From Thermaerobacter marianensis DSM 12885 (GTDB taxonomy: Bacteria > Bacillota > Sulfobacillia > Thermaerobacterales > Thermaerobacteraceae): a stretch of DNA of 64,000 nucleotides. A program made the translations under genes and the position numbers. The notes below the pieces were generated by a model. That model made no database searches. It was given only the letters and a program-made list of their open reading frames with translations, and had not been told where the DNA came from. The stretch covers positions 1,860,001 to 1,924,000 of the forward strand of contig NC_014831.1 of assembly GCF_000184705.1 (NCBI RefSeq), in the 5' to 3' direction. Within the stretch, counting starts at the first letter, position 1. Every line of letters begins with the position of its first letter. Positions 4,366 to 20,820 of this stretch are shown in pieces.

Positions 4366-4368
4366 GGC

Positions 4369-6414
4369 TTACCCCCCCCGCGCGGAGAGGATCAGATGAC
4401 CAAAACCGTCGACGGAGGCCGCCCAGCCCGGCGGGATGACCGTCGTCGTGGTAAGCTCGGTCACGATGGCCGGCCCCGTGAAGCGGTGCCCGGGCTGCAG
4501 GGTGTCCCGCTCGTAGACGGGCGTGGGGTGCGACCGGCCCCCGAACACCACCGGTCGCACCTGGCGCGGGGCGGGTGCGTCTTCCGCGCGCCCTCCCCGG
4601 GGAGCGGGCGGAGGCGGCGCGATCCGCCCCAAACCGGTCACCCGCAGGTTGACGATCTCGACGGGGGTCCGCTCGCTGGCGTGACCGTACACGCTGCGGT
4701 GCCGTTCGTGGAAGGCCGCCACCAGGGCCGCCACGTCGTCCGGACCGATGCGGTCACCGGCCGGCGACAGCGGGAGGTTGAGCAGGTACTCCTGCCCCAC
4801 GTAACGCATGTCGACCGTGCGGATGAAGACCATGTCAGCGTCCGCCACGTGCTGGCGGCCCAGGATCGCAGCCAGCTCGCCCTCCATCTCCCGGTACAGT
4901 TCTTCCGCCTCGGCCGGGTCGACCTGGCTGACGGCCCGGAGGTAGGTCCGCACCGCGTCGTGCCGGATGTCGGTCTGCAGCATGCCCCAGGCCGAAAAGG
5001 CACCCGGGAAGTTGGGCACGATGATGGTATCGATCTCCAGGGCCTCGGCGATCCAGGCCGCGTGCATGGGACCCGCACCGCCGAAGGCCACCAGCGCGAA
5101 CTCCCGCGGGTCGATCCCCTTGCGTACGGTGAGCGTGCGGATGGCATCGGCCATCTTGTGGTTGACCACGGCCAGGATGCCTTCCGCCGCTTCTTCTACT
5201 CCCAGGCCGAGCCGGGCGGCCAAGCGCCCCACCGCCTCCCGCGCCGCCGGCACGTCCAGGCTCATGCGCCCGCCCAGGAACCGCTCGGGGTCGAGGCGCC
5301 CCAACACGGCGTTGGCGTCGGTCACCGTCGGCTCCGTACCGCGGCGCCCATAGCAAGCCGGGCCCGGCTCGGCGCCGGCCGATTGCGGGCCCACCCGCAA
5401 GCCGCCCGCCTCGATCCAGGCCAACGAGCCGCCGCCCGCACCGATGGTGTGGATGTTGACCATGGGCGACAGGATCGGAAACCCCTCCAGGGAGGCCTCA
5501 TTGGTCACATCCACCTGGCCGCCGATGACCAGGGTGACGTCGAAGCTGGTCCCGCCCATGTCGACCCCGATCAGATTGGCGCGGTCCAGGATGCGGCCGA
5601 TCAGCGCGGTGCCCACGGCCCCGCCCACCGGCCCCGAGAGGAGGGTCTGGATCGGCTGTTCCCGGGCGACGTCGGCGGTCATGATCCCGCCGTTGGACCG
5701 CATGATGTAGAGGGGCTCCCGCAAGCCCCGTTCCCGCAGCTCCTCTTCCAGGGCACCCAGGTAGCGGGAGACGATGGGCGCGATGTACGCGTTGATCACC
5801 GTGGTGCTCGTCCGCTCGTATTCACGCCACTCCCGGGCCACCTCATGGGAGCAGCTGATGGTCAGCCCGGGCAGCTCCCGGCGGATGACGTCCCGGACCA
5901 GCTGCTCGTGCACCGGGTTGACGTGGGCGTGAAGCAGGCAAATGGCCACCGCTTCGTACCCGCCGGCACGCAGGGCCGCCACCAGCGGGCGCAGGTCCTC
6001 CGGGCGCAGCGGGCGCAGCACCGTGCCGTCATAACGCAGCCGCTCCGGGACCTCGTACACGTCACGGCGGGGAACCAGCGGCTTCGGTTTGCGATAGCGG
6101 ACATTGTACATCTCGGGCCGGTTCCCGCGGGCAATCTCGTACACATCCTGGAAGCCCTCGGTGGTCACCAGGGCCACCCGAGCCCCTTTCCGTTCCAGGA
6201 AGGCATTCAGCCCGGCGGTGGTGCCGTGCACGAGAAAGCCCAGCGTCGCCAGGTCGTCCACCAGTTCCGTCAGCCCCCGGACCACGCCCACCTGCAGGCG
6301 GCCCGGGGTGGTGGCCACCTTCCCCGTCCGGTAGGTCCCGGTGGCGGGGTCGTAGGCCACCAGATCCGTGAAGGTGCCGCCGATGTCCATGGCGACCCGC
6401 AGACCCGCACTCAT
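4369..6414 (-). CDS. hyuA: Hydantoinase/oxoprolinase subunit A (HyuA family)
   Basis: 681 residues with the actin-like ATPase architecture of HyuA. Phosphate-binding motif MDIGGTFTDLVAYD is at residues 9-22, HGTTAGLNAFLERKGA follows, then a second nucleotide loop LIGVDMGGTSFDVTLV and AEPGPACYGRRGTEPTVTDA. The family phosphorylates a cyclic amide or ketone for ring opening or carboxylation by the B subunit. The start codon overlaps the stop of the upstream XRE-cupin regulator (ATGA) and hyuB follows after 3 nt, so all three form one operon. The substrate is probably a hydantoin, 5-oxoproline or related lactam and remains open. Confidence 0.93.
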   Translation of the reverse strand: MSAGLRVAMDIGGTFTDLVAYDPATGTYRTGKVATTPGRLQVGVVRGLTELVDDLATLGFLVHGTTAGLNAFLERKGARVALVTTEGFQDVYEIARGNRPEMYNVRYRKPKPLVPRRDVYEVPERLRYDGTVLRPLRPEDLRPLVAALRAGGYEAVAICLLHAHVNPVHEQLVRDVIRRELPGLTISCSHEVAREWREYERTSTTVINAYIAPIVSRYLGALEEELRERGLREPLYIMRSNGGIMTADVAREQPIQTLLSGPVGGAVGTALIGRILDRANLIGVDMGGTSFDVTLVIGGQVDVTNEASLEGFPILSPMVNIHTIGAGGGSLAWIEAGGLRVGPQSAGAEPGPACYGRRGTEPTVTDANAVLGRLDPERFLGGRMSLDVPAAREAVGRLAARLGLGVEEAAEGILAVVNHKMADAIRTLTVRKGIDPREFALVAFGGAGPMHAAWIAEALEIDTIIVPNFPGAFSAWGMLQTDIRHDAVRTYLRAVSQVDPAEAEELYREMEGELAAILGRQHVADADMVFIRTVDMRYVGQEYLLNLPLSPAGDRIGPDDVAALVAAFHERHRSVYGHASERTPVEIVNLRVTGLGRIAPPPPAPRGGRAEDAPAPRQVRPVVFGGRSHPTPVYERDTLQPGHRFTGPAIVTELTTTTVIPPGWAASVDGFGHLILSARGG

Positions 6415-7175
6415 CGAGGATCCTCCTCCCGGCTAGCGCCCTCCTTGGTTGGGTCGCTGCAAGGCGTTTGGTCGGTGCAATGCGTGGCGTCGCTGCAAGG
6501 CCTCGGGTCGGGTATCCCGGGATCCGAAGGGGCCTTGAAGATGGGAGGCGTCACGACCCATAGCGCTTGCACCGGGCGATCCGTCCGGTTCTCCCAGTTG
6601 TGGGGCACCGAGGACCGCATGTGGATGCTGTCACCCGGGTTCAACGTGTACTCCCGGTCCCCGTAGATCACGGTCAGGGTACCCTCAAGGATGAACCCGA
6701 ACTCTTCCCCGGGATGGTCGTAGGGCGTCACGCGGTGCCGCCGGTTCGGCAAGAGGGTGACCAGGACCACCTCGAGCTCCTTGTCCGGCCACGTGGCCGT
6801 CAGGTTGCTGTAGAGGGTGTGGGCCGCACTGGCCATGCGGAACGCGTGCCGCTGGTGGGCGCGAACGATCTTCGGCCCTGCCAGGTCGTCCTCTTCGATG
6901 CGGAAGAAGTAGGCGAGCGGCACCCCGAGAGCCTGGGCGATCCGCTGGAGCGAGGTGAGCGTGATGTCGGAACGCCCACGCTCGATGTCGGAGAGGAAGC
7001 TCTTGGAGAGGCCCGACGCCCGGCTCAGCGCCTCCAGGGTGATGCGGCGGGCGCGCCTGAGCTGGCGGATGCGCAACCCCACCGCGCTCAGGGGCTCGAT
7101 GCCCCCCTCGCCCCTGGAAGCCACCTTGGAAGCACCGGGCGGGTCGGGTATAATCGGGTCGGTCCGCGAGGGCAC
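6411..7175 (-). CDS. XRE-family regulator with C-terminal cupin domain
   Basis: 254 residues starting at GTG 7175 behind a GGAGGG ribosome binding site. Residues about 30-88 form a lambda-repressor-like HTH (VGLRIRQLRRARRITLEALS, SKSFLSDIERGRSDITL). Residues about 145-215 form a cupin barrel (HPGEEFGFILEGTLTVIYG, LNPGDSIHMRSSVPHNWEN). This class usually senses a small metabolite and controls the neighbouring catabolic operon, which fits its overlap with hyuA. The last ~35 residues form a Cys-containing tail with three C-S/T-D units (PCSD, HCTD, PCSD) encoded by imperfect DNA repeats, not usual for the family. Confidence 0.92.
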   Translation of the reverse strand: MPSRTDPIIPDPPGASKVASRGEGGIEPLSAVGLRIRQLRRARRITLEALSRASGLSKSFLSDIERGRSDITLTSLQRIAQALGVPLAYFFRIEEDDLAGPKIVRAHQRHAFRMASAAHTLYSNLTATWPDKELEVVLVTLLPNRRHRVTPYDHPGEEFGFILEGTLTVIYGDREYTLNPGDSIHMRSSVPHNWENRTDRPVQALWVVTPPIFKAPSDPGIPDPRPCSDATHCTDQTPCSDPTKEGASREEDPR

Positions 7176-7478
7176 GCGAGATCCCTCCGGGCGACGGGGC
7201 CATCGCTGCGACCCTTGGCCGGGGCGAGGAGCGATGGCCTCTCGTGTTCCTGGTTCCCGTTCCTCGTTCCCCTACCTCGTGTGCAACGGTTTCTGCTTCC
7301 CTGTTCCGGATTGCGGACTACCCACCGGCGGCTCGCGTTTGGTCGCTTGTATTCGGTGTCGGCGAACGAAATTCCTTCCCCGCCGGATTGCATGTCGACC
7401 GGAATCCACGGGCGGCCGGGTGCCGGAAAACGAGAAAACCCGCCGGGCACCGGGATCCGTCGTGGTGGAAGGTACGCC
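7176..7478. other. Intergenic region between XRE regulator and HAD gene
   Basis: About 300 nt without a convincing gene. It holds the ribosome binding site of the XRE gene at one end and a copy of a 38-bp dispersed repeat (7418-7455) at the other. The stretch 7240-7400 is less GC-rich than its surroundings. I see no clear promoter. Confidence 0.5.
7418..7455. repeat. 38-bp dispersed repeat, copy 1
   Basis: Identical over 38 bp to 17332-17369, in the same orientation. The ends GGTGCC and GGCACC can pair, leaving an AT-rich centre (AAAACGAGAAAAC). On the minus strand it reads as a GC-rich stretch followed by TTTTCTCGTTTT and lies 24 nt after the HAD stop, so this copy may act as a terminator. 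Confidence 0.7.
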
Positions 7479-8393
7479 CTATCCCCCGGTACCCCTGGAT
7501 TGTTGCGAAAGCCTTTCCATCCACAGGTCGATGAACTCCGCCACGCCATCCGCGTCGTGATCGCCGACCACGACGCCAGCCGCCTCCCGCACGGCTGGCG
7601 GCGCATTGCCCACGGCCCCGCCCAGGCCCGCCCACGTGATCATGCTCAGATCGTTCCGCTCATTGCCGATCGCCGCTACCTGCTCCAGGCCGAGCCCCAG
7701 GGTCCCCACCAGCCAGCGCAGAGCGGCGCCTTTGTTCACCCCGGGCGCGCAGAACTCGATGCTGCTGGCGGTCGAAGCGGTGATTTCGAGCTTGTCGCCC
7801 CAAAGGCGCTGCACCTCGGGCCACAACCGGGCGATGCGATCGGGCCCGTCCACGATCACCATGTGGGTCGGCTTTTTGTGCAGCGCTTCCGGGAGGCTGT
7901 GGACCCGGACGTACGGCACGCGGTGGATGCGAGAGAAGGATAGGGTCTCTTCCGTGACCTGGGAGACGAACAGGCGGTCGTCCACGTAAGCCTTGAGGTA
8001 CAGCCTCTCCCGGTCGGCCCAGCGGGCCAGCTCCCGGGCCAGTGGGAGGGGGATCAGCCGCTCCTGTAGCGGCCTGACGCTCCAGGACGGCCGGATCACC
8101 GCCCCGTTCCCCGCGATCACCCACAGAGGCCGCCCGGGCCAGTAACGGAAATACTGGCTGGCCGATACGAGCGTCCTCCCCGTCGCCAGGACGACGACGA
8201 TCCCGGCGTCGAGGCACCGGGCAACCGCCGCCTGGTTGCGAGGCGACACCGTCCCGTCGGAACGGAGCAGGGTGCCGTCGATATCCAGCGCCAGGACGCC
8301 CCGGGGCCTGCCGCCTTGCGGGCCTGCGAACCTGGGAAAAGGCTCCGGGCCGGGACCCGGTTCCGGCCCGGAGCCCGCGGCTCCCCGTACCAT
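7479..8393 (-). CDS. Cof-type HAD-IIB sugar-phosphate phosphatase
   Basis: 304 residues from ATG 8393, whose A overlaps the stop of the upstream aldolase (TGATG). An alternative ATG at 8411 would add 6 residues. HAD motif I is LALDIDGTLLRSDG (about residues 33-46) and motif II LATGRT. VNKGAALRWLV and IGNERNDLSMITWAG (motifs III/IV) are near the C-terminus, and the cap is of class IIB. Such enzymes dephosphorylate sugar phosphates. Last in the Dga-like operon, it may remove a phosphorylated intermediate or detoxify a dead-end product. Substrate unknown. Confidence 0.88.
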   Translation of the reverse strand: MVRGAAGSGPEPGPGPEPFPRFAGPQGGRPRGVLALDIDGTLLRSDGTVSPRNQAAVARCLDAGIVVVLATGRTLVSASQYFRYWPGRPLWVIAGNGAVIRPSWSVRPLQERLIPLPLARELARWADRERLYLKAYVDDRLFVSQVTEETLSFSRIHRVPYVRVHSLPEALHKKPTHMVIVDGPDRIARLWPEVQRLWGDKLEITASTASSIEFCAPGVNKGAALRWLVGTLGLGLEQVAAIGNERNDLSMITWAGLGGAVGNAPPAVREAAGVVVGDHDADGVAEFIDLWMERLSQQSRGTGG

Positions 8394-9142
8394 CAGCCGA
8401 ACACCCGGCATATCTCTGCCAGCAACGCGGCCGCGTCGGCCGGCCTGGTCCGCCCCGTCTCCTTGTCGATGATGGCGCTGTAGATGTGTGGCACGACAAC
8501 CGGGCTACCGGCGTTCAGGCACGTTTCCACGACCCGGGCCACGTTGGCCACGGTGATGCCGCCCGTGGGCTCGAACACGGGAATGCCGGCTTCCGCCGCC
8601 GCCTTCGCCATGGCGGCGACCTCGTGCAGGCGCGCGTCGCCCTCAATGGGGAAGAACTTGACCGAGTCCACCCCTACCTCCGCCAGCATGGCGGCGGCGG
8701 TGGCGCAGTCCACCTGGGCCGCGGGGGTTTGACTGCTGCGCGGCCCCGTGGAGATGATGACCCGGCCCGGGATTCCCGTGGGTGAGACCAGGGCGTTCAC
8801 CACGTTGCCGCCGGCCATCCCCTTCGCCCGCAGCGCCCCCACGGTATAGCCCGCCGCCGGGAAGACCTGGTTGACGTGGCCGGGGTCGGTTTGCAGTGCG
8901 GTGTCGGCCACGCGCTGCCACTGGTTGGGATCGCCGGCGCCCAGGCCCACCGACACCACCGGAATCACTTCCTGAAAGGACCGCACCTGCCGGACGGCGG
9001 CCTCCACCGACGGGTGGTCGGCGAGCAAGACACCGATCACCGCGTGACCCTCAGTGGCCTCCCAGACCTCCCGGGCGTTGGCGGCATCCCGGGCCAGCAG
9101 GTTCACGGCGACACGGCCGTTCAGGAGAGGCAAGCGCTTCAC
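8393..9142 (-). CDS. dgaF: DgaF-like 2-dehydro-3-deoxy-phosphogluconate aldolase
   Basis: 249 residues matching the KDGP-aldolase (DgaF) family, distinct from the classical Eda sequence but a TIM-barrel type I aldolase. Characteristic stretches are AVNLLARDAANAREVWEA, MAGGNVVNALVSPTGIPGR, VDSVKFFPIEGDARLHEV (probable Schiff-base lysine in VKFFP) and GIPVFEPTGGIT. In the Salmonella glucosaminate pathway DgaF cleaves 2-keto-3-deoxygluconate 6-phosphate to pyruvate and glyceraldehyde 3-phosphate. The GTG start overlaps the stop of the preceding DgaE-like gene by 4 nt, which supports consecutive steps. Confidence 0.87.
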   Translation of the reverse strand: MKRLPLLNGRVAVNLLARDAANAREVWEATEGHAVIGVLLADHPSVEAAVRQVRSFQEVIPVVSVGLGAGDPNQWQRVADTALQTDPGHVNQVFPAAGYTVGALRAKGMAGGNVVNALVSPTGIPGRVIISTGPRSSQTPAAQVDCATAAAMLAEVGVDSVKFFPIEGDARLHEVAAMAKAAAEAGIPVFEPTGGITVANVARVVETCLNAGSPVVVPHIYSAIIDKETGRTRPADAAALLAEICRVFG

Positions 9143-10263
9143 GCTCGTTCACGCCCCTTCAATACTTCGCGCAAGCGCTCGACGATGAGATCTTCCTGCC
9201 CCGGCAGCAACGTTCGCGGGTCGATGTCGAGGATCCCGACGTTCGCGTAATGGTTGCGGGTAAAGATCGCGGGATCGCCTGTTTCCAGGTGAGCGATGAT
9301 CTGCCGCGCATCGAGGCCACTTTCAGGCAAGACCTCGATGCGGGCCCGGTAGATCTCACGCCCTGCTTCGTCCTGGATGACCCGGGCCCGAAGGCCGGGA
9401 AGCGTGTTCAACCGCTCGACCAGGCGTTCCATCCGCTCGCGATCCCGCCGGGCCTCTGCTTTGTGGTCCCGCTTCTCGTAGAGTTCGAGGGCCGCGAGGA
9501 GACCGGAGATGGCCTCCTTGCTCACCTTCATCGCCCTGCCGACGCCCCTATACTGCAGGACACACGCCTCCACCAGGTCGCGCCGGCCACAGATGAACCC
9601 CGACGTCGGACCACCAATGGCCTTGCCGCCACTGTAGCAGACCAGGTCGGCGCCCATGGCAACGTACTTCTTCAGGTCTTCTTCCGCCGCGGCGTCGACG
9701 ATCACCGGCAGGCCGTGCCGCTTGCCGATCTCGATCATCTCCGGCAGGCTCACCATGCCCTTCTGCACGGCATGGTGGGACTTGCAATAGAAGAGGGCCA
9801 CCGTGCGGGGCGTAATGGAGTGCTCCACATGCTCGGCCAGCACCAGATTCGCATGGCCGGCCTCGACGGCCATGCCCCCGCCCAGCCGGATCATCTGGGT
9901 GATGGCCCCGCCGAAATGAACGCTGTGGCCCTTGGGCAGCACGACCTCGTTGGGCCGCCCCCTGCTGTCCGGAAGGGACTCGATCGCCACGGGGTCCTTG
10001 CCGGCCACACACGCCGCCACGGACAGGACGATCCCTGCGGCCGCTCCCATGGTCGGGACGGCGAACTCCGCCCCGGTCGCCCGCGCGATGCGCTCGCCGG
10101 CGACCCGCAGGAGCTCGTCCATGATGACGTATTCCGACGCTGCCGCCGCCAGGGCCGACGCCACCTCGGGAGCCACCGCCGAGCTGCCCAGGGCAGTCAT
10201 CTTGCCACTGGCGTTGATGACTCTCCGCAGGCCCCACTGGGCAAAGACGCTCACAACGTCCAC
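9139..10263 (-). CDS. dgaE: DgaE-like PLP-dependent aminosugar-acid ammonia-lyase (SelA-like fold)
   Basis: 374 residues, fold type I PLP enzyme of the D-glucosaminate-6-phosphate ammonia-lyase/SelA-like family. Visible are RVINASGKMTALGSS (residues 14-28), a glycine-rich PLP-phosphate region TMGAAAGIVLSVAACVAG and the Schiff-base lysine in CYSGGKAIGGPTSGFICG. DgaE converts glucosaminate 6-phosphate to 2-keto-3-deoxygluconate 6-phosphate plus ammonia, the substrate of the overlapping dgaF. The exact amino-sugar acid used here is inferred from the pathway. The GTG start at 10263 has a poor ribosome binding site (AAAGGCG too close); a GTG three codons later is an alternative. A hairpin precedes the gene. 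Confidence 0.85.
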   Translation of the reverse strand: MDVVSVFAQWGLRRVINASGKMTALGSSAVAPEVASALAAAASEYVIMDELLRVAGERIARATGAEFAVPTMGAAAGIVLSVAACVAGKDPVAIESLPDSRGRPNEVVLPKGHSVHFGGAITQMIRLGGGMAVEAGHANLVLAEHVEHSITPRTVALFYCKSHHAVQKGMVSLPEMIEIGKRHGLPVIVDAAAEEDLKKYVAMGADLVCYSGGKAIGGPTSGFICGRRDLVEACVLQYRGVGRAMKVSKEAISGLLAALELYEKRDHKAEARRDRERMERLVERLNTLPGLRARVIQDEAGREIYRARIEVLPESGLDARQIIAHLETGDPAIFTRNHYANVGILDIDPRTLLPGQEDLIVERLREVLKGRERA

Positions 10264-10305
10264 CGCCTTTGAATGGGCAGGTTGAGAACTGACAAGTCGG
10301 AAAAT

Positions 10306-10333
10306 GGGAAGCGGCGCATGGTGGCCGCTTCCC
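10306..10333 (-). terminator. Intercistronic hairpin between DUF4310 gene and dgaE
   Basis: 10-bp perfect stem (GGGAAGCGGC 10306-10315 with 10324-10333), 8-nt loop. On the minus strand it is followed by ATTTTCC, giving the look of a partial intrinsic terminator. It sits inside an otherwise compact operon, so it may attenuate or process the message between transport-like and enzyme genes. Confidence 0.5.
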
Positions 10334-10398
10334 CCGCCCGTCGTTCCTTTCGGTGTTCCGTTAGGCCTTGGCCACCAGCGGCCCAGGAACGAGAGGGA

Positions 10399-11046
10399 TT
10401 AGCCCTGAACCGGGAAGAGCGATCCCAGGATCATGGCCCCGAGAATGGCGCCCCCGGCAATGGGCCGCCGCAACTTGTAGAAGATGGCCGCCCCCACGAA
10501 GGCTCCCAGACCCGCTGGAATGGAGTACTGGATCGCCGACAGGATGATGAGGGGACCCAGGTACTGGCCGGTGGCGTTGCCCGCGCCCATCATCACCCCC
10601 GTACCGCTGGCCGAGATCCCCTGGGGCATGACCTTCCGGATGACGATGATGACGCTACCGATGGCGACGCCCACCGCCAGGCCGAGGAGCAGGGAGAGAC
10701 CGAAGGATTCCAGGGGCCAGCGGATACCCGAAGCCAGCAGTACCGCCGGGATCCCGATGCCCACACCGGTCATGAGCGACCCGCCCAGATCGAGCACGCC
10801 CACCAGCGGGCCCTCCAGGACGCGGGCCACGAGGAAGCCCGCCGCGAACCCGGCCGCCGCGGCATAGGACCCGCCCTTCAGGCCCTCCTCCAGCATCTGC
10901 ACCACGAAGATCTCATTGAAGGCCCCCGATCCCGTGGTGATGTACAGGTGCGTTCCCGCTACCACCCCTGCCGCCGCCAGACCCAGGAGCAGGGGAAACG
11001 CCCAGGGGCTCATCAGAAGCTCGTTCAGCTTACTCCGCGACACCAA
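10399..11046 (-). CDS. DUF4310 family integral membrane protein
   Basis: 215 residues, highly hydrophobic with about six to seven membrane segments and many glycines (GGSYAAAAGFAAGFLVARVLEG, GISASGTGVMMGAGNATGQY). It matches the DUF4310 family, which occurs almost only beside DUF4311, DUF4312, SFCGS protein and DgaE/DgaF-type enzymes. A TTG at 11046 or GTG at 11043 follows an AAGGGGGT ribosome binding site. With DUF4311 it probably forms a membrane complex, plausibly the uptake system for the operon's substrate. No transport motif of a known family is recognisable, so this is inference. Confidence 0.82.
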   Translation of the reverse strand: MVSRSKLNELLMSPWAFPLLLGLAAAGVVAGTHLYITTGSGAFNEIFVVQMLEEGLKGGSYAAAAGFAAGFLVARVLEGPLVGVLDLGGSLMTGVGIGIPAVLLASGIRWPLESFGLSLLLGLAVGVAIGSVIIVIRKVMPQGISASGTGVMMGAGNATGQYLGPLIILSAIQYSIPAGLGAFVGAAIFYKLRRPIAGGAILGAMILGSLFPVQG

Positions 11047-11069
11047 CGTCTACCCCCTTGGACACAGGT

Positions 11070-11789
11070 CTAGAACAGCTCGGCGATCTTCCAGTGGAAG
11101 CCACGGAAATAGGCAATCAACACGAACAGCACCACCACGATGGCGATCATGGTGTTGGTCGCCTTGGTATAGCCGTTCTCTTCGGCGGACTTCCCGATCA
11201 AGATACCCAGCACGACGCCCGGTACTGCATTGCCCATGATCATGTGGGCAAGGCCGCCGAGAATGGTGCCCCACATGCCGGTCTGCATGCCGGCGTCCAG
11301 GGCAGCCAGCCAGAAGATCACCGGCATGACGGGGTTGATCATCAGGTTGGAAGCCGGGCCAAGAATCTCGGCGGCGACGACCGCCATGGACTTGGGAATG
11401 GCGGCCGCCATGGTGTTCAGGGCGGTCACGACCACGGCCCCCACCACGGCGCCGGCCGCGGCCATGGCGGCAGGGCTGTAGAGGGTCTCCTCCACCTTCT
11501 TGTTCTTCAGAAGCAAGAGACCGGCCGACCAGTTGGGAATGATGCGATGAATGACGTCCTGGGTCATGGCACCCGCTCCGACCACCGATGCCGCCGCGTT
11601 AAAGAAGAACCCGAGCCCAAAGGAGAGATGGGTGATGGGATCACCCTTGCAGGCGTTGAGCTCGCCCAGGGTGCGAAAGGCGCCCATGGACTGTACCTCT
11701 GGTGCATAGAACATCCGCGCCGCGCCCGCGGACACGGCCGCACCGACCAGGGCTCCGATGATGATCGACTTCAGAACGATGATGAGCAA
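11070..11789 (-). CDS. DUF4311 family integral membrane protein
   Basis: 239 residues from TTG 11789, chosen because AAGGAGG lies 9 nt upstream; the in-frame TTG at 11798 abuts the ribosome binding site and is too close. About six to seven hydrophobic segments, with conserved-looking polar/glycine patches (SFGLGFFFNAAASVVGAGAM, NPVMPVIFWLAALDAGMQTG). It matches DUF4311, the partner of DUF4310, whose gene follows 23 nt downstream. Function unknown; a two-component membrane permease with DUF4310 is the simplest reading. A gap of about 120 nt separates it from the DUF4312 gene. Confidence 0.82.
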   Translation of the reverse strand: MLIIVLKSIIIGALVGAAVSAGAARMFYAPEVQSMGAFRTLGELNACKGDPITHLSFGLGFFFNAAASVVGAGAMTQDVIHRIIPNWSAGLLLLKNKKVEETLYSPAAMAAAGAVVGAVVVTALNTMAAAIPKSMAVVAAEILGPASNLMINPVMPVIFWLAALDAGMQTGMWGTILGGLAHMIMGNAVPGVVLGILIGKSAEENGYTKATNTMIAIVVVLFVLIAYFRGFHWKIAELF

Positions 11790-11919
11790 GGTGTGCAACC
11801 TCCTTGCCGGAGATCTATGGGGACACCCATGGGAAACGACATGGCCGCTTCATTGGTGACACGATTCCCGTTGAAGCCTTCCTCGGTTCAGCTATCCTGG
11901 GTCACGAACCCTGGGTACC

Positions 11920-12216
11920 CTATCCGAGGATTTCTAACCACCGGACCTCCACATCGATCTGCACCTCCATGTCGACGCGATGCCGGGTACGGGGCCAAAA
12001 CAGCCAGAGGAACCTCTCCGTGTAGGACCGGATGTCGAGACGGGTCACCTCCACATGGACGGGGGCCATGAACAGCACGGTCCCCCGGACCCTCTGCAAC
12101 ACCTGGCGCCGCAACCGGGCCAGGATCTGGTTCAGCGCCTCTTCCGTGGTTTCTCCCGTCCCGGAAAGGGATGTCCTGACCAACTCACAGTGAAAGCGGC
12201 TGCAGCGCTGGCTCAT
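11920..12216 (-). CDS. DUF4312 family small protein
   Basis: 98 residues, no signal peptide and no clear membrane helix (FLWLFWP is too short). The C-terminal half alternates charged and hydrophobic residues (RHRVDMEVQIDVEVRWLEI), typical of beta strands. It matches DUF4312, always found between the SFCGS and DUF4311 genes in this type of locus. The start overlaps the SFCGS stop by 4 nt. Role unknown; a soluble partner of the DUF4310/4311 membrane pair is plausible. Confidence 0.8.
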   Translation of the reverse strand: MSQRCSRFHCELVRTSLSGTGETTEEALNQILARLRRQVLQRVRGTVLFMAPVHVEVTRLDIRSYTERFLWLFWPRTRHRVDMEVQIDVEVRWLEILG

Positions 12217-12587
12217 GTCTTCCCCTCGGCCTTTAACCTGCGGTACTCCTCAACTAGTCGCCGACCAAGCTCCTCGGTATCCAGGAAGCCGAAGCCCAGC
12301 ACCCGCGCGCCGTTCCTCAGGGCCGTCACCCCTGCTTCGACGGAGCGCAGGTGATGCTCCACTTTGTACCCGTACTTGTTGGCGGCCATGAGGGCGCCCG
12401 CGCCCCCGCTCCCGCAGAAGGCGATGCCCAGGTCCGCTTGCTCGCTATGCATCACGTCACCCACCCGGAGGTCGGCCGCCATCCCCGGGATCAGGATCGC
12501 GACGCCGCCAGCCGCCTCGACGCCCCGGGCCACGGCCTGTCCCTTGCCCAGGCGGTCGCCGATGACCACCTTCACCACGTCGCTCAT
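12213..12587 (-). CDS. Glycine-rich SFCGS family protein, RpiB/LacAB-like
   Basis: 124 residues. The C-terminal half reads DLGIAFCGSGGAGALMAANK, then RNGARVLGFGFLDTEELGRRL. Both blocks align by eye with the active-site loop and following strand/helix of RpiB/LacAB sugar-phosphate isomerases (G-I-CGTG-G-SIAANK ... NVLAFGSRVVG-ELA). Cys58 would correspond to the catalytic cysteine of RpiB. The N-terminal DHxG-type histidine region of RpiB is not obvious, so catalysis may differ. It sits 15 nt after the small PRD gene and overlaps the DUF4312 gene by 4 nt. The family name comes from the SFCGS motif (here AFCGS); the isomerase relation is my inference. Confidence 0.8.
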   Translation of the reverse strand: MSDVVKVVIGDRLGKGQAVARGVEAAGGVAILIPGMAADLRVGDVMHSEQADLGIAFCGSGGAGALMAANKYGYKVEHHLRSVEAGVTALRNGARVLGFGFLDTEELGRRLVEEYRRLKAEGKT

Positions 12588-12602
12588 CCGTCCACCTCCC
12601 CT

Positions 12603-12968
12603 TCATGCGGATGTGGAAGCCCGCTCGCGGGCTGCACCAAAGTGCAGGGCGACCAGCCCGACCTCGGCCGGATCCACCGGCTGACCGGCGGTCTCGTACA
12701 AGGGGCGGATCAAACGGGTCGCAATCTCCATACAGTCCCTGGGCAACTGGGTGAAGACGGAGGGGTCGATGCCCTGCAGTCGCTTGCCTTCCGTGAGCCG
12801 CCGGACCAGGCCCACTAGATGGGTCGCCAGCCCCAAGCAGGCCTGGTCGTCGAGGGGAATCCCTACTTCCGCGGCGAGGCTCTCCGCCGTCTTCATCAAC
12901 CGCTGAAGCTGCCGAAGTTCGGCGATGGACAGCTGCAATTCTTGGGCGACTTGCTGCAACGGGTTCAC
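12603..12968 (-). CDS. Small stand-alone PRD domain protein
   Basis: 121 residues, essentially one PTS regulation domain: LAAEVGIPLDDQACLGLATHLVGLVRRLTEGKRL with a conserved His in ATHLVG, and VGLVALHFGAARE near the end. It has no DNA-binding domain, matching the small PRD protein (EF_0829 type) of related loci. It may titrate phosphate from HPr/EIIB or bind the large PRD regulator. A GTG start overlaps the amidohydrolase stop (GTGA). Confidence 0.8.
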   Translation of the reverse strand: MNPLQQVAQELQLSIAELRQLQRLMKTAESLAAEVGIPLDDQACLGLATHLVGLVRRLTEGKRLQGIDPSVFTQLPRDCMEIATRLIRPLYETAGQPVDPAEVGLVALHFGAARERASTSA

Positions 12969-14107
12969 GCGGAAATGCCTCCCGGCCCGATATCACCGAC
13001 TATATGACCGTGGCGAATTGTCATGACCGGCTCCAGCAGGCAGGACACGACCTCGGTCACTCCTTCCGAGTCCTGCAAGGGGAACTGACCCCGTACCTGC
13101 CGGATGATGCTGATGTCCGCGATCCGGCCGGGCGCCAGGCTACCGATCTCGTGCTGCCTGTGCAGGGCGACGGCAGGGCGCCACGTAGTGGCGGCGACGA
13201 CCTCCTGCAGGGGCATTCCCAGGTGCAAAAGCTTGCTCATGCAGTGCAGCAGGCTCACCACCGGCCCCGTCTCGTTGCCGCGCCAGAGATCGGAACTGAT
13301 GATGTGGGGCACGAGACCGTCCGCCAGGAAACGGCGGCAGGTCGCGTAGCTGAAGCTCGCCTGCCCGTGGGCGACGTCGAACAAGACACCGCGTTCCAGG
13401 GCGGCCCGGGCCTCGGGCAGCAGAGTGCCGTCCCTGTAGATGCCGCCTTTCTTGCCGTGAAACGCGTGGCTGACGATGTCACCGGCCTCCAAGAGCTCCA
13501 GCACCTCTTCCAACCGGGGAGGCGCGTTGCCGATGTGCACCATAAGCGGCACGCCGGCCCGCTTGGCCGTCTCCTTGGCCAGGCGAACGGGGGCGATGCC
13601 CTGGTCCCCCACCACCGAGGCGCTGGCGCGAGCCTTGACCCCCACCAGGAAGCCGCCGTGAGCCCTCAGAGCCTCCACCGTCTCATCGGGCGCCAGCATC
13701 CGGGGGTCGGCCAGCTCGCCCCGGTGCCGGGCGAGCCCGTCCCGGGCCAGGTTGATGTAAGCCAGCACGCGAGTCCTTGCGCCACGCACGCTCTCCCGGA
13801 ACCGCAGGAGGTTGTCGACGCCGCTGCTGCCGGCATCCACCACCGTGGTCACGCCCTGCTGTACCCCGATCCGGTCCGGGGGCAGGCCCAGGCGGGTCTC
13901 CCCCACAAAGCAGTGGGCGTGGAGATCGATCAAACCGGGAAGAACGAGCAACCCCCGGGCATCGATCACCCGCTCGGCCTCCACCGCGGCGTCCGGCGCC
14001 TCGATGGCGAGGATGCGCTTGTCGCTGACGAGGACGGTACCTTCGCGGTCGAGACCCGTCGCGGGGTCGATCACGCGGCCACCACGAATGGCAAGATCGA
14101 CTTTCAC
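12965..14107 (-). CDS. Amidohydrolase/deacetylase family metallohydrolase (EF_0837 type)
   Basis: 380 residues, amidohydrolase superfamily. Composite metal site: GLIDLHAHCF (HxH, about residues 59-68), a probable carboxylated lysine in FLVGVKARAS, VHIGNAPP, DIVSHAFHG and a catalytic Asp in HIISSDLWRG. This subfamily is found with DgaE-like genes and may deacetylate an N-acetyl amino-sugar acid before the lyase step, which fits the pathway but is inference. The start overlaps the regulator's stop (ATGA) and the stop overlaps the PRD gene, so translation is coupled on both sides. Confidence 0.87.
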   Translation of the reverse strand: MKVDLAIRGGRVIDPATGLDREGTVLVSDKRILAIEAPDAAVEAERVIDARGLLVLPGLIDLHAHCFVGETRLGLPPDRIGVQQGVTTVVDAGSSGVDNLLRFRESVRGARTRVLAYINLARDGLARHRGELADPRMLAPDETVEALRAHGGFLVGVKARASASVVGDQGIAPVRLAKETAKRAGVPLMVHIGNAPPRLEEVLELLEAGDIVSHAFHGKKGGIYRDGTLLPEARAALERGVLFDVAHGQASFSYATCRRFLADGLVPHIISSDLWRGNETGPVVSLLHCMSKLLHLGMPLQEVVAATTWRPAVALHRQHEIGSLAPGRIADISIIRQVRGQFPLQDSEGVTEVVSCLLEPVMTIRHGHIVGDIGPGGISA

Positions 14108-16074
14108 GAGGCCACCTCTCCTTCTTGCGGTCGCAGGATGTACCGGAGAACGGGCACGACCTCGTCCGGGGGAACGGTCACGCCGTGCCAGCGGGCGAAC
14201 AATTGCATGCCGCGCTCGACGGCCCGAAACAGCGCCCGGTGCTCCTGGCGGATCCGCTCCAGGTCCGGTTCCCGCACGTAGTGGCCCGCCCGGAAGCGGG
14301 GCAGGGCCAGCTGGAGGTGGATGGCCATCCCGGCCCGTGCCTGCATCCCCACCCGGATGCCGAGAAGGGACACTTCCCGGACGATGGGCTCGGCCAGCTC
14401 GATGGGGACCCGGTGGGTGACCAGGCGGTCCGTGAGGGCCTGGCGCAATCCCTCGGGGTCCTTGACCTCGGCATAGGCAGGAATCAGCGCCATCAACTCG
14501 GCGACGAGGGGAGCTTCATCCGGGTCGGCGGCGGGCCACCCGCCCGCCAGGGGCCGGCGCAGAGCCGCCCGCACCCGGTCCATCTCACCGGGGCCCAGCA
14601 GCGGGGAGACCTGCACCCAGGGAACGGGTAGCGGCGGGAGGGGAACGGTGGTGACCACCAGATCGGCCCGGTTCCCCCAATCGGAGTCCGCGCTCTCCAG
14701 GGCGGACACCACGCCCACGATCTCGATCTCCGGGAACGCCCGCTCCAGCCGGGCGGCCAGGAACCGCGCGGACCCCAGACCCGAACTGCAGACCACCAGG
14801 ACCCGCAGTTTGGGAAGCCGGCCCTGGCGTTCTAGGGCGGCCGCTAGGTGGACGGTAAGGTAGGCGATCTCGTCCTCGGAGACGTCGCCTCCCAACTCCG
14901 GTCGCATTTCATCGATGACCCGGTCGACCACCGTATAAACCAGGTTCAGCTGCTGCCGGATCTCCAGCTGCAGGGGGTTCCTGGCCGGCACCCGCAGGTC
15001 CTGGCGGTTCAGCAGGCCCTGCATGTGCCACAGAAGCCCTTCCCGGAGCACGGTATCGCGGGACAGGTCGACCCCGAGGCGGGCCCCCACCTTGCGGATG
15101 AACCGGTCGGCCATGCCGACGGCACGCGGGTCGAATGCCGGCCGGTGGGGCAGCCCGTTGGCGTCCACCGGTGGCTGGCGCCGGCTGGCCGACAACTGGA
15201 TGACCAGGTAGCCGAGATCTTCCTCCGGAAAGGCGACACCGGTACGGGCCCGGATCACCCGGGCGATCTCGCCGGCGACGCGCCATTCCGGCCGGCGCTT
15301 CAACTCGGCCAGCCGGTCCTCCGGCATGGTGAGGCGCTGTCCCTTGCGCAGCCGCTGCACGGCCACGGCCAGGTGGACGGCGAGGGAGACGTAACTCTCG
15401 TCGGTAAACTTGACGCCCAGACCTTGCTCGGCGATCTTCACGATCCCGGCCAGGTCGGATAGCTTCAGCGGATTGATGCCGAGGGCGTGTTCAAGAAAGG
15501 GAGAACGCGTCGCCTCCACGCCGCGCAGGGCGTTCAACAACTGGTCGGGGTCCAGGGTTTCGATCAGCGACCGGACCAGCGCATCGCGCCGGTCTCGTTC
15601 CGTACCCGTGACCAGCAGCCTCCCCCTGACTCGCCGGAGCTCCAGATCAAAGCGTTGGAGCCGTTCCTTGACGGCCGGGAGCTGGCGGAGGATGGTGGAC
15701 CGGCTGCAACCGAGGGTTTCCGCCAGGTGCTGCAACGACAGGGGCTCGTCAGAGGCCAGCAACTCCCAAACGAGCCGGTCCTCGCGCGCCTGGGGCATGA
15801 GGGCGGGGGTCCCTTCCTCCCGCAAGAGGCTCAGCAAGGCTTGCCTTCGCGCCGCATCCCCCTCGATCCAGACGCCGGTCCGGGGTTTCGCGGCCAGCCG
15901 AAGCCCCGTCCCCTTGAGGGCCGCGCGGATGGCCCGGAGGTCGTAGCGAACGGTGCGCAGGCTAACCCCGAACCTGGCACTCAACCCCGTCGAGGCGGTA
16001 GGGCCCGCACGCCCGAGAAGATAAATGAGGATCCCATGCTGGCGTTGATTCAAGGAAAACAGCATGTGACGCAT
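14104..16074 (-). CDS. PRD-containing PTS-type transcriptional activator (BglG/MtlR-like)
   Basis: 656 residues from ATG 16074 (MRHMLFSLNQRQHGIL); upstream in-frame ATG 16194 would add 40 residues of unlikely sequence. Domains in order: two HTH modules (LSARFGVSLRTVRYDLRAIRAAL; LAETLGCSRSTILRQLPAVK), PRD1 (YVSLAVHLAVAV, His about 230), PRD2 (IAYLTVHLAAALERQG), an EIIB-like domain (RVLVVCSSGLGSARFLAARL) and a C-terminal EIIA-like domain (IHLQLALPRF). Activity should depend on phosphorylation by PTS proteins. Being first in the Dga-like operon, it is the likely activator. Three TGGTGCAA motifs lie upstream or around its start. Confidence 0.88.
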   Translation of the reverse strand: MRHMLFSLNQRQHGILIYLLGRAGPTASTGLSARFGVSLRTVRYDLRAIRAALKGTGLRLAAKPRTGVWIEGDAARRQALLSLLREEGTPALMPQAREDRLVWELLASDEPLSLQHLAETLGCSRSTILRQLPAVKERLQRFDLELRRVRGRLLVTGTERDRRDALVRSLIETLDPDQLLNALRGVEATRSPFLEHALGINPLKLSDLAGIVKIAEQGLGVKFTDESYVSLAVHLAVAVQRLRKGQRLTMPEDRLAELKRRPEWRVAGEIARVIRARTGVAFPEEDLGYLVIQLSASRRQPPVDANGLPHRPAFDPRAVGMADRFIRKVGARLGVDLSRDTVLREGLLWHMQGLLNRQDLRVPARNPLQLEIRQQLNLVYTVVDRVIDEMRPELGGDVSEDEIAYLTVHLAAALERQGRLPKLRVLVVCSSGLGSARFLAARLERAFPEIEIVGVVSALESADSDWGNRADLVVTTVPLPPLPVPWVQVSPLLGPGEMDRVRAALRRPLAGGWPAADPDEAPLVAELMALIPAYAEVKDPEGLRQALTDRLVTHRVPIELAEPIVREVSLLGIRVGMQARAGMAIHLQLALPRFRAGHYVREPDLERIRQEHRALFRAVERGMQLFARWHGVTVPPDEVVPVLRYILRPQEGEVAS

Positions 16075-16090
16075 GCCCCGCCACCACAAA

Positions 16091-16208
16091 TGGTGCAATA
16101 ATGGACACTTTCGGTGTGTTGCACCAGGCGTATTCGGGGCGGCAACGGTAAATCCTGTCCCATTAAGGGTTGAATTGTGTTGTATTATCGTCACCTTAAT
16201 TGGTGCAA
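16091..16208. promoter_or_regulatory. Three TGGTGCAA motifs at the PRD regulator promoter
   Basis: TGGTGCAA occurs at 16091-16098 and 16201-16208, and inverted (TTGCACCA) at 16119-16126. The region is distinctly AT-richer than its surroundings and lies upstream of the first gene of the ten-gene operon. Candidate operator sites for the PRD regulator; unproven. Confidence 0.45.
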
Positions 16209-16382
16209 TGATGAAACGATGCTGGACGCAACGACACTGGACCGATATGAAATCGAGGCTGGACTGAGAGGCACGGATCTACCGATGGTGGCCGTCGTCG
16301 GCACTGACCACACTGCCCACGTCATGCGGCGAAACAGACGGGGCGACAGTGCAATCTGGGCACTGGTCGAAGTTCTCGTGGT

Positions 16383-17204
16383 GTGGAGTCTCACGCTGGC
16401 GCTAATGTGGGCAGCAATCCGGCTCCCCGTGGTCTCCGCCTTGGAGAAATGGCAGCGGGAGATGGTGGGCCATCCGTTTCTTACGATCGTACGACGGCGG
16501 CCCTGTTCGTCGTTGTCGCCCTGCTCATCCTCGAATTGAGCGGCCGGGATCCCGGCCGGTACGGCATTGCCTTCCATCAAAGCGGGCGCGCGCTGGAGGC
16601 CGGCCTGACCTCCCTCGCCGCGCTGGGACCGCTCTGCGGGCTGGTGTTTCTACTCTTAGCGGGTCTCGGGTGGTCTCCCTATGATTGGCCGGGCGCGCTG
16701 ATTCTCGCGCTGGGATACGGACTGGCCTGGCCTGTGGTGGCCTACCTCCTGTGCAAACAGCCCGCCGTGGAGGAACGCCCGGCCTCCCGGGGTCAGATCG
16801 CCGGCCTGCTGTCGGGTCTGGAACTCGTCACCGTGCTGGCCGCGGTGGTGCACCCTCATACCCCTTTGGTTTCGACGGCTCTCTATACGCTCTTCTTCCT
16901 CGGGATCGGAGAGGAGCTGTTCTTTCGCGGCTACGTCCAGTCGCGGCTCAACCAGGCCTTCGACCGCCCGTACCACCTTCGGGGCGCGAGCTTGGGCTGG
17001 GAGATGCCCCTGGCCGCGCTGGTCTTTGGATTGAGTCACGTGCTGAGCCCGCCGAACCCGGGACAGGTGGCATGGGGGTTGTGGACCTTCGTCTTCGGCC
17101 TTGTCATGGGTCACGTGCGCGAAGAGACGGGAAGTTTTCTAGCGCCTGCCGTCGCTCACGGCGTGCTAATGTGCGTCGCAGCCCTGCTCGGGGGGCCATC
17201 GTGA
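16383..17204 (+). CDS. CPBP family intramembrane metalloprotease (apparent N-terminal frameshift)
   Basis: The main frame shows the CPBP motifs GEELFFRGYVQSRL (EExxxR), FGLSHVL (FxxxH) and AHGVLMCV, among six or so membrane segments, as in Abi/CAAX-type proteases. Its first 30 residues look like noise (MESHAGANVGSN). An overlapping frame from about 16324 (MRRNRRGDSAIWALVEVL) encodes a good membrane helix WALVEVLVVWSLTLALMWAA and then KWQREMVGHPFL, continuing sensibly into the main frame (YDRTTAALFVVVALLILEL) if one base is added near 16470-16500. Either the gene is frameshifted or the read has an error. The role of this CPBP is unknown; the family includes prenyl-proteases and bacteriocin-immunity proteins. 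Confidence 0.75.
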   Translation: MESHAGANVGSNPAPRGLRLGEMAAGDGGPSVSYDRTTAALFVVVALLILELSGRDPGRYGIAFHQSGRALEAGLTSLAALGPLCGLVFLLLAGLGWSPYDWPGALILALGYGLAWPVVAYLLCKQPAVEERPASRGQIAGLLSGLELVTVLAAVVHPHTPLVSTALYTLFFLGIGEELFFRGYVQSRLNQAFDRPYHLRGASLGWEMPLAALVFGLSHVLSPPNPGQVAWGLWTFVFGLVMGHVREETGSFLAPAVAHGVLMCVAALLGGPS

Positions 17205-17331
17205 GTGGCAAAGGGCCCCCGCGACACGAGGCGCGGACGTCGCAGGCCAAATGGGCCGCATGGCGGATGCCCTTTCGTCCCCGCGGCGTTACGGCCCAGC
17301 TGACCGGGAAGCGAAGTCCCCGTTCACCACG

Positions 17332-17369
17332 GGGTGCCGGAAAACGAGAAAACCCGCCGGGCACCGGGA
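17332..17369. repeat. 38-bp dispersed repeat, copy 2
   Basis: Exact copy of 7418-7455 in the same orientation, including the self-complementary ends GGTGCC/GGCACC and the A-rich centre. Flanking sequences of the two copies differ, so the conserved unit is confined to this element. Confidence 0.7.
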
Positions 17370-17478
17370 CCTGCGCCCCCACGGTCGCCGCGACGCTCCG
17401 TCCGATCGCCGTGACCTTGGGCTCGATGAGTGAAGGATCGCCTGCTGGCGGCCCGGGCCCATGGCGAGCGGAAACACG

Positions 17479-17544
17479 ATACGGCGCGCCCGTGGCCTCG
17501 CCGCCGGGAACTGGCGGCCTCGGTGCCACACCGGCGCGCCGTAT
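17479..17544. repeat. Long inverted repeat near cupredoxin gene
   Basis: ATACGGCGCGCC (17479-17490) is perfectly complementary to GGCGCGCCGTAT (17533-17544). Inside the spacer GTGGC/GCCAC and GCCGCC/GGCGGC can extend the pairing. It is 170 nt beyond the cupredoxin stop and may be a bidirectional transcription end or a remnant of a mobile repeat. Confidence 0.5.
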
Positions 17545-17711
17545 ATCAACTGCCCTGCCCACGGGACCTGAAGGCACCGGCCTTTTGGTGGAAGCCGCCT
17601 ACCGGCCTTCTACGGGCCGCACGCAGGCCGGGATGGGGTCAAGCTATGGCGCCAGCTCACGTGCTGGGTGGTTCGGCCCCACATTTACCTACCCGAAGGT
17701 TGATACCGCCT

Positions 17712-18089
17712 TCACTCCACCACCAGCTTGCCGCGAAGCATCCCCATCTGGCATGTGAAGTCGTATTCGCCGGGCTCTTCCGGCAACAGCTCCACGGTCA
17801 CGGTTTCGCCCGCGGGGAGCCGCGCCGACTTGCCGAAGTCCGCAAAGACCACCATCTCCGAGCAGGCGGCCGTTTCCTCACGGCGGAAGTGGATACGCAC
17901 CGGCTTGCCACGCTGGACAACGATGACATCCGGCGTGTAGCCACCCTTCACCAGCACCATCGCTTCCTGGTAGCCGGTCGAGGTGAGCGACGCTCGCGTC
18001 CCCGCCCGGCGCGGCCCCCAGAAGAACCAGGCGATCCCGACGACAATCACCGCCCCCACCAGGATCACCACGATGTCGGTCGCGCTCAT
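17712..18089 (-). CDS. Membrane-anchored cupredoxin-domain protein
   Basis: 125 residues from ATG 18089, which overlaps the stop of the P-type ATPase gene (ATGA). An N-terminal membrane helix ([19 protein letters not shown]) is followed by one cupredoxin barrel. Candidate copper ligands are in [13 protein letters not shown] and [13 protein letters not shown] (Cys and Met residues; the usual ligand His is not evident). Co-translation with a copper ATPase suggests an extracytoplasmic copper-binding partner. The altered ligand set may mean different metal affinity. Confidence 0.85.
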
Positions 18090-20752: not shown

Positions 20753-20782
20753 GGGACTCCCTCCCTGTGTGCGGAGTCTGCC

Positions 20783-20820
20783 GACGGAGGGTGTTCCCCT
20801 CCTCCGAATCACCCTCCGTC
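20783..20820 (-). promoter_or_regulatory. Hairpin in the leader of the YHS copper ATPase gene
   Basis: 11-bp perfect stem (20783-20793 with 20810-20820) around a 16-nt loop, about 30 nt before the copA start. On the minus strand the loop contains GGAGGAGGGG. It lies between the His-rich peptide and copA and could influence relative expression. Confidence 0.4.

Follow-up and report, generated by a model that had tools for sequence, protein, structure and literature searches.

In Salmonella, the ammonia lyase DgaE and the aldolase DgaF form one system with DgaABCD, a mannose-type permease of the phosphotransferase system (PTS), and it is this permease that supplies the phosphate of their substrate (PMC9529869). 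Homologs of both enzymes also belong to a cassette of another composition, EF_0829-EF_0839 of Enterococcus faecalis and AHA_3910-3917, which is covered by the families TIGR03577-TIGR03583. In E. faecalis, dgaEF is duplicated (PMC7396535), Tn-seq points to a possible fitness contribution of EF0839 (DgaF) (PMC7701990), and the promoter of EF0839 or of its duplicate was recovered in a urine-induction screen (PMC2912369). Four of the protein families involved, DUF4310, DUF4311, DUF4312, and SFCGS, co-occur in a range of bacteria that includes Clostridia, Bacilli, Klebsiella, and Bartonella, and their role is not known; in the literature that we searched, no paper is about them, incidental mentions being all that was found, and no demonstration of transport by the cassette was encountered. 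Here we analyze a ten-gene operon in a stretch of 64,000 nucleotides of Thermaerobacter marianensis DSM 12885 (NC_014831.1, positions 1,860,001 to 1,924,000; hereafter the window). The operon belongs to the EF_0829-EF_0839 type, which is known but uncharacterised, and, with about an even chance in our judgement, it encodes a PTS-fed system for the group translocation and breakdown of an amino-sugar acid, likeliest N-acetyl-D-glucosaminate or a close relative.

A cassette with a conserved gene order

Using a DUF4311 alignment as query, 46 loci were retrieved, mostly from Bacillota, and the order amidohydrolase (AMH), small PRD protein (PRDs), SFCGS, DUF4312, DUF4311, DUF4310, DgaE, and DgaF is common to all 46 of them, except for genes lost at contig ends. 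With the same core order in so many loci, the operon is not a chance arrangement. A PRD activator is present in most loci, usually as the first gene and sometimes in divergent orientation, and a HAD phosphatase occurs near only some relatives, either upstream or downstream. In the versions of Klebsiella and Bartonella, AMH is shifted behind DUF4310 and the activator stands at the end.

In the window, the ten open reading frames extend from position 16074 down to 7479, all on the minus strand and in one direction throughout. Five of the nine junctions overlap (activator/AMH, AMH/PRDs, SFCGS/DUF4312, DgaE/DgaF, and DgaF/HAD), and the other four intergenic gaps measure 15, 23, 121, and 135 bp, the last being the largest. 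The PRD-containing transcriptional activator (14104..16074) comprises 655 aa from the ATG at 16074, although its open frame reaches further up to a GTG at 16194; it carries HTH_11, Mga, and three PRD stretches, and a PTS_IIB match slightly below the Pfam cut-off. It is followed by the amidohydrolase/deacetylase of the cog3964/EF_0837 type (12965..14107; NF006689 with 422 bits, cut-off 371), the stand-alone small PRD protein of 121 aa (12603..12968; PRD 3e-8), the RpiB/LacAB-like glycine-rich protein SFCGS (12213..12587; Gly_rich_SFCGS 5e-61), and the small soluble, putatively accessory DUF4312 (11920..12216; 5e-31). Two polytopic membrane proteins, DUF4311 (11070..11798; 6e-121) and DUF4310 (10399..11046; 9e-103), precede the pyridoxal phosphate (PLP)-dependent ammonia lyase of the DgaE family (9139..10263; TIGR01437 with 456 bits, cut-off 385), the KDGP aldolase of the DgaF family (8393..9142; KDGP_aldolase 5e-80; NF047796 with 313 bits, cut-off 300), and a Cof-type HAD phosphatase outside the core (7479..8411; Hydrolase_3 8e-48).

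Pfam and NCBIfam confirm all ten gene identities, and thus every call of an earlier note on this DNA, which had been made from the sequence alone. That note had also described ten co-directional genes, which is borne out, and mostly overlapping junctions, a fair description; it had likened the operon to the EF_0829-EF_0839 loci, conserved and not understood, and this is the type to which it belongs. The cut-offs for hypothetical equivalogs are passed for TIGR03577, TIGR03579, TIGR03580, and TIGR03581 (SFCGS, DUF4311, DUF4310, and DgaF families). TIGR03578 (DUF4312; 53.5 of 89.65), TIGR03582 (29.9 of 69.35), and TIGR03583 (318.5 of 432.15) stay below theirs, the small PRD protein scoring, like DUF4312, under its own cut-off. 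The assignment to the family is based on Pfam and on the order of the genes.

Within the class of the window genome, Sulfobacillia, the cassette is rare, DUF4311 being found in 4 of 154 genomes. It is absent from the three congeners examined, and a DNA search with window positions 4300-20800 gave no long match over the operon in the congeners, only paralogous stretches of P-type ATPase. Rarity in the class and absence from the congeners, at the level of genes and of DNA, indicate that the operon was probably acquired. A 4.94-Mb Aeromonas caviae sequence, NZ_AP026896.1, is filed as a plasmid, and its size suggests a mislabelled chromosome.

Catabolic enzymes and the link to HPr and EI

The window DgaE and Salmonella DGL (7lc0) can be aligned along the whole length of the former, and through this alignment the residues were mapped onto the relatives. 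His-162, His-163, the PLP lysine, and the phosphate cluster of Arg-301, Arg-332, and Arg-346, which surrounds the substrate phosphate in the published docking of DGL (PMC9529869), are kept wherever they are covered in 43 DgaE loci. At the position of Arg-226, the arginine for the carboxylate, nearly all loci have Arg or Lys, and the DgaF lysine is kept in 42/42. As the phosphate cluster is intact, the substrate of DgaE should be phosphorylated and, judged from the sequence, is very probably the 6-phosphate of a 2-amino-2-deoxy aldonate. Relatives of AMH among solved structures are 2ics, which is of the EF_0837 type, 2ogj, 8wzy, and 8je0, and its residues of metal-ligand type (HxH, K, H, H, and D) are invariant in 46/46. 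Amidohydrolases of the EF_0837 group hydrolyse (R)-configured acetyl compounds, N-acetyl-D-serine weakly, and such a specificity would suit an N-acetylated sugar acid of the D-amino-acid type. An extra Lactonase-family gene in the Klebsiella cassette again points to an aldonic acid. The catabolic pathway reading is well supported, and the conserved core of the 46 loci contains no kinase.

An HPr gene lies next to the cassette in 6 of the 46 loci, representing about four lineages. It is found 57 bp past the HAD gene in L008, 15-27 bp past dgaF in L043, L044, and L045, upstream of the cassette in L046 and, accompanied by enzyme I (EI), directly ahead of the activator in L021. Within 2 kb of the cassettes, 0.25 HPr genes in all would be expected, versus 6 observed (P 2.6e-7 for six loci; P 1.3e-4 for four lineages, with L043-L045 taken as one). 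Two further genes were not counted as linked EI: an EI-like gene in L031, which by length and sequence looks like pyruvate, phosphate dikinase, and the EI of L025, 650 bp past the last gene. In five cassette genomes, an EIIC gene from either of two large families is found no more than 9 kb away from 26 of the 46 other HPr genes, where 2.2 would be expected, which suggests that an extra HPr marks permease operons in those genomes. The HPr of L043-L045 retains the histidine motif GIHARPAG, and at the usual Ser46 site, the position of which we assume, it reads VSKILNLMAM, as if this HPr were freed from HPr-kinase control.

In Bartonella sp. HY406 and HY761 (L098 and L100), a 55-kb plasmid has the whole cassette and then a 671-aa HPr-EI fusion with an intact GLHARPAA motif; no enzyme II (EII) is seen among the annotated genes of these plasmids, a gene table that may be incomplete and covers the plasmid only. 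Genes for a type VI secretion system are present on this plasmid as well. HPr is present in 46/46 cassette genomes and EI in 45/46, the window genome having one HPr and then EI; in the class overall, EI is found in 67 of 154 genomes. Neither an EII nor any other permease gene recurs in the neighbourhoods of the 46 cassettes. The PTS link of the cassette is well supported, and a phosphorylated DgaE substrate with no kinase in the core, taken together with linked HPr and EI and no EII, leads to the reading of PTS-fed import.

A putative phosphoryl relay and competing explanations

The small PRD protein consists of a PRD domain and has no DNA-binding domain. Despite low overall identity, it keeps His50, Arg57, and Glu102 in 47/47 members and His109 in 45/47. 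In eight loci it is fused, namely to AMH (L021, L028, L034, and L048), to SFCGS (L016-L018), or to both, in a triple AMH/PRDs/SFCGS fusion (L026:7596-9503), and it is therefore probably part of the same complex as AMH and SFCGS. SFCGS has an invariant cysteine, Cys58, in 36/36 aligned members and a weak LacAB_rpiB match in 34 of the 36, with the cysteine loop aligned; the window protein reaches 24.2 of 24.7 bits for LacAB_rpiB and is thus related to this Pfam family without being filed as a member. SFCGS is also homologous to E. coli YhfU (hhalign 7e-6 over 116 columns, besides HMM hits), and the PRDs profile finds small PRD proteins of the YhfY type in HMM searches. Bacillota yhf loci (among L083-L093) show the order YhfY-YhfU-YhfT, in which YhfY and YhfU are adjacent. 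From their invariant residues, the PRD histidines and then the SFCGS cysteine, PRDs might be a phosphohistidine carrier and SFCGS a phosphocysteine carrier.

AlphaFold models of DUF4311, which is all-helical (pLDDT 85, pTM 0.69), and of DUF4310 (pLDDT 84, pTM 0.63) have a helix order that corresponds along a profile alignment of 182 columns. The score of this alignment is 81.5, compared with 35.4 +/- 4.6 for block shuffles (0/100 reach it) and 51.9 for the reversed profile, and the DUF4310 profile matched DUF4311 proteins in two loci. With hhalign giving just 25% probability, paralogy of the two is likely rather than proven. Solved structures searched by sequence with DUF4310 and DUF4311 gave no match, and the Foldseek and VIA lists for both models hold no EII and no convincing transporter, with a best Z <5, such absence not being evidence. 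An interpretation of DUF4311 and DUF4310 as the split halves of YhfT looked good by eye but was supported neither by hhalign (0.1-0.5%) nor by profile Smith-Waterman with shuffles (z 2.9 for the C half and -0.3 for the N half), and homology is claimed for YhfU and YhfY alone. Hits that HMMs from single sequences gave on E. coli YhfT were noise. Likewise, a weak hit of DUF4312 to Alba (E 0.018), amid scattered Pfam noise, was not used.

The simplest account seems to be that the DUF proteins take the place of an EII and that the general PTS relay feeds the cassette. In this mechanism, phosphate would pass from phosphoenolpyruvate via EI and the histidine of HPr to the small PRD protein (His50/His109), then to Cys58 of SFCGS and on to the sugar acid, which would enter by way of DUF4311/DUF4310, the paralogous membrane pair, DUF4312 being accessory, and would appear inside the cell as a 6-phosphate. 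The cog3964 amidohydrolase would take off the acetyl group, DgaE would release ammonia to give 2-keto-3-deoxygluconate 6-phosphate (KDG-6-P), and DgaF would cleave KDG-6-P to pyruvate and glyceraldehyde-3-phosphate, the PRD activator switching the operon. Transport, the order of phosphoryl transfer, the exact substrate, and the role of PRDs and SFCGS in place of IIA and IIB are what we infer, and to the relay from EI via HPr, PRDs, and SFCGS to DUF4311/DUF4310 we would assign roughly half of our confidence.

Uptake and catabolism of an amino-sugar acid, probably N-acetylated, had been proposed in the earlier note and is supported. Pfam, Foldseek, and VIA gave no known transporter family for DUF4310 and DUF4311, and the outcome that the note had named as refuting its reading, their placement in a known unrelated transporter family, was thus not seen. 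Between the transporter and the group-translocation machine that it had left side by side, the latter is now the better half, as relatives carry a dedicated HPr and, in Bartonella, an HPr-EI fusion, with no EII. That the PTS is replaced was misleading, since seemingly only the permease (EII) is replaced while EI and HPr are apparently used, and the small PRD protein, which had been left out of the machine, is a conserved and sometimes fused part.

Several observations weigh against a PTS-fed permease. Among the listed Pfam matches of all alignment members of SFCGS, DUF4312, DUF4311, and DUF4310, up to an E of 1, there is no EII family, and PRD domains are, to our knowledge, known as regulated domains and not as phosphoryl carriers to sugar. 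Linked HPr genes are limited to the 6 loci named, and one cassette genome (G184, locus L039), possibly an incomplete metagenome-assembled genome, has no EI match and five HPr matches. One other EIIC is present in the window genome, and the tested class members have another EIIC too, which means that the PTS is present for other reasons as well. The window DgaE scores 425.5 of 600 bits, below the DgaE equivalog cut-off, and is filed as DgaE family (TIGR01437) only. A notion that the cassette is the sole EII candidate of its genome failed, given the other EIIC of the window genome and the mannose-type EIICs of G018, G019, and G058.

The main alternative, less probable than the reading above, is that DUF4310, DUF4311, and DUF4312 form an ordinary, non-phosphorylating importer, that a kinase encoded elsewhere makes the 6-phosphate, and that phosphorylation by HPr and EI is confined to the PRD activator and PRDs, which in turn gate transcription or enzyme activity. 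In its favour, most loci include a PRD activator, a classical kind of HPr target, some cassettes have sugar kinases nearby (PfkB in E. faecalis, a ROK family member beside L008), and the DUF proteins lack an EII sequence signature. However, this explanation needs a separate kinase, which the conserved core does not provide; an HPr-EI fusion on a plasmid and HPr copies inside the operons exceed what regulation would need, HPr genes in these genomes otherwise accompany EII operons, and the partners to which PRDs is fused are enzymes and SFCGS, not a DNA-binding domain.

It seems very improbable that the DUF proteins are a membrane-bound enzyme or sensor complex and that the substrate enters through another permease, for which one could cite the EIIC inside the E. 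faecalis cluster and the other EIIC elsewhere in the window genome. None of the recurring neighbours is a permease gene, such a gene is missing from the clusters of Klebsiella and Bartonella, and no EIIC family is common to the tested genomes, G018, G019, and G058 being devoid of PF02378 and G000 of PF03609. Very improbable, finally, is SFCGS as an RpiB-type sugar-phosphate isomerase, with an extra isomerisation step and a substrate that is not a simple aldonate. The consistent LacAB_rpiB match with its aligned cysteine loop would agree with it, but DgaE and DgaF require no isomer of glucosaminate 6-phosphate, and YhfU, in another catabolic context, likewise has a small PRD protein next to it, so that a role shared with the PRD protein fits better.

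Flanking DNA and relation to known systems

Upstream of the operon, on the minus strand, a repeat search found two direct copies of a near-palindromic 25-bp sequence, one at 16189..16213 (core ATTGCACCAATTAAGGTG) and the other immediately ahead of the activator start at 16079..16103 (core ATTGCACCATTTGTGGTG). The copies are 80% identical, each core being nearly palindromic, and a pattern built from these two copies occurs 2 times in the 64 kb, with 0.01 expected; they could be the operator of the PRD activator. A 38-bp sequence, GGGTGCCGGAAAACGAGAAAACCCGCCGGGCACCGGGA, is present in two identical copies of the same orientation 9.9 kb apart, one just outside the operon (7418-7455) and the other past a CAAX-protease-like gene (17332-17369), a possible insertion trace or dispersed element. 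Rfam gave no match across window positions 4-22 kb. Downstream on the same strand, 4369-7175 contain genes that, read from sequence, encode a hydantoinase/oxoprolinase-like protein (681 aa) and a helix-turn-helix/cupin-type regulator; the congeners have no long DNA match to this region. A heavy-metal P-type ATPase (908 aa) and then a small cupredoxin-like protein are encoded at 17712-20812, with related stretches about 28-31 kb further along the same genome and in all congeners.

If a PTS-driven permease is indeed encoded, a new class would be added to a textbook system, PRD domains would have a catalytic task and not a regulatory one, and there would be an explanation of how oxidised, acetylated amino sugars could serve as food for many bacteria of the gut and the environment. 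Through the linkage with HPr and HPr-EI, a long-standing "function unknown" becomes a directly testable question of in-vitro phosphorylation. Somewhat more tentatively, we propose a new class of phosphotransferase permeases in which a PRD protein would be IIA-like, the RpiB-like SFCGS IIB-like, and the paralogous membrane pair, which has no recognised fold, the translocator, a scheme that may also cover the yhf operon of E. coli.

Of the known systems, the EF_0829-EF_0839/AHA_3910-3917 cassette has the same genes as the window in largely the same order. The E. faecalis cassette adds an EIIC, a 99-aa protein, and a MupG-family gene, which interrupt it, and a PfkB kinase that follows (L096:13620-20335), whereas the window adds the HAD phosphatase; in E. 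faecalis, a second uptake route may have merged with the cassette. With Salmonella dga, the window shares homologous DgaE and DgaF with their active-site residues and, as proposed here, phosphorylating import, but it lacks the mannose-type EII and instead has PRDs, SFCGS, DUF4312, DUF4311, and DUF4310 plus a deacetylase. The E. coli K-12 operon yhfS-yhfZ (L082:6936-14345) contains counterparts of SFCGS and PRDs, the homologous YhfU and the YhfY-type small PRD protein, and differs in its enzymes YhfS, YhfW, YhfX, and Php. Compared with PTS enzyme II permeases, two small soluble and two membrane proteins recall the mannose-type IIA, IIB, IIC, and IID, HPr and EI are linked, and the proposed working principle is alike, yet the cassette has no sequence match to any EII family and its membrane subunits look mutually paralogous. 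The cassette may thus work like a PTS enzyme II while, by sequence, it is not a member of those families.

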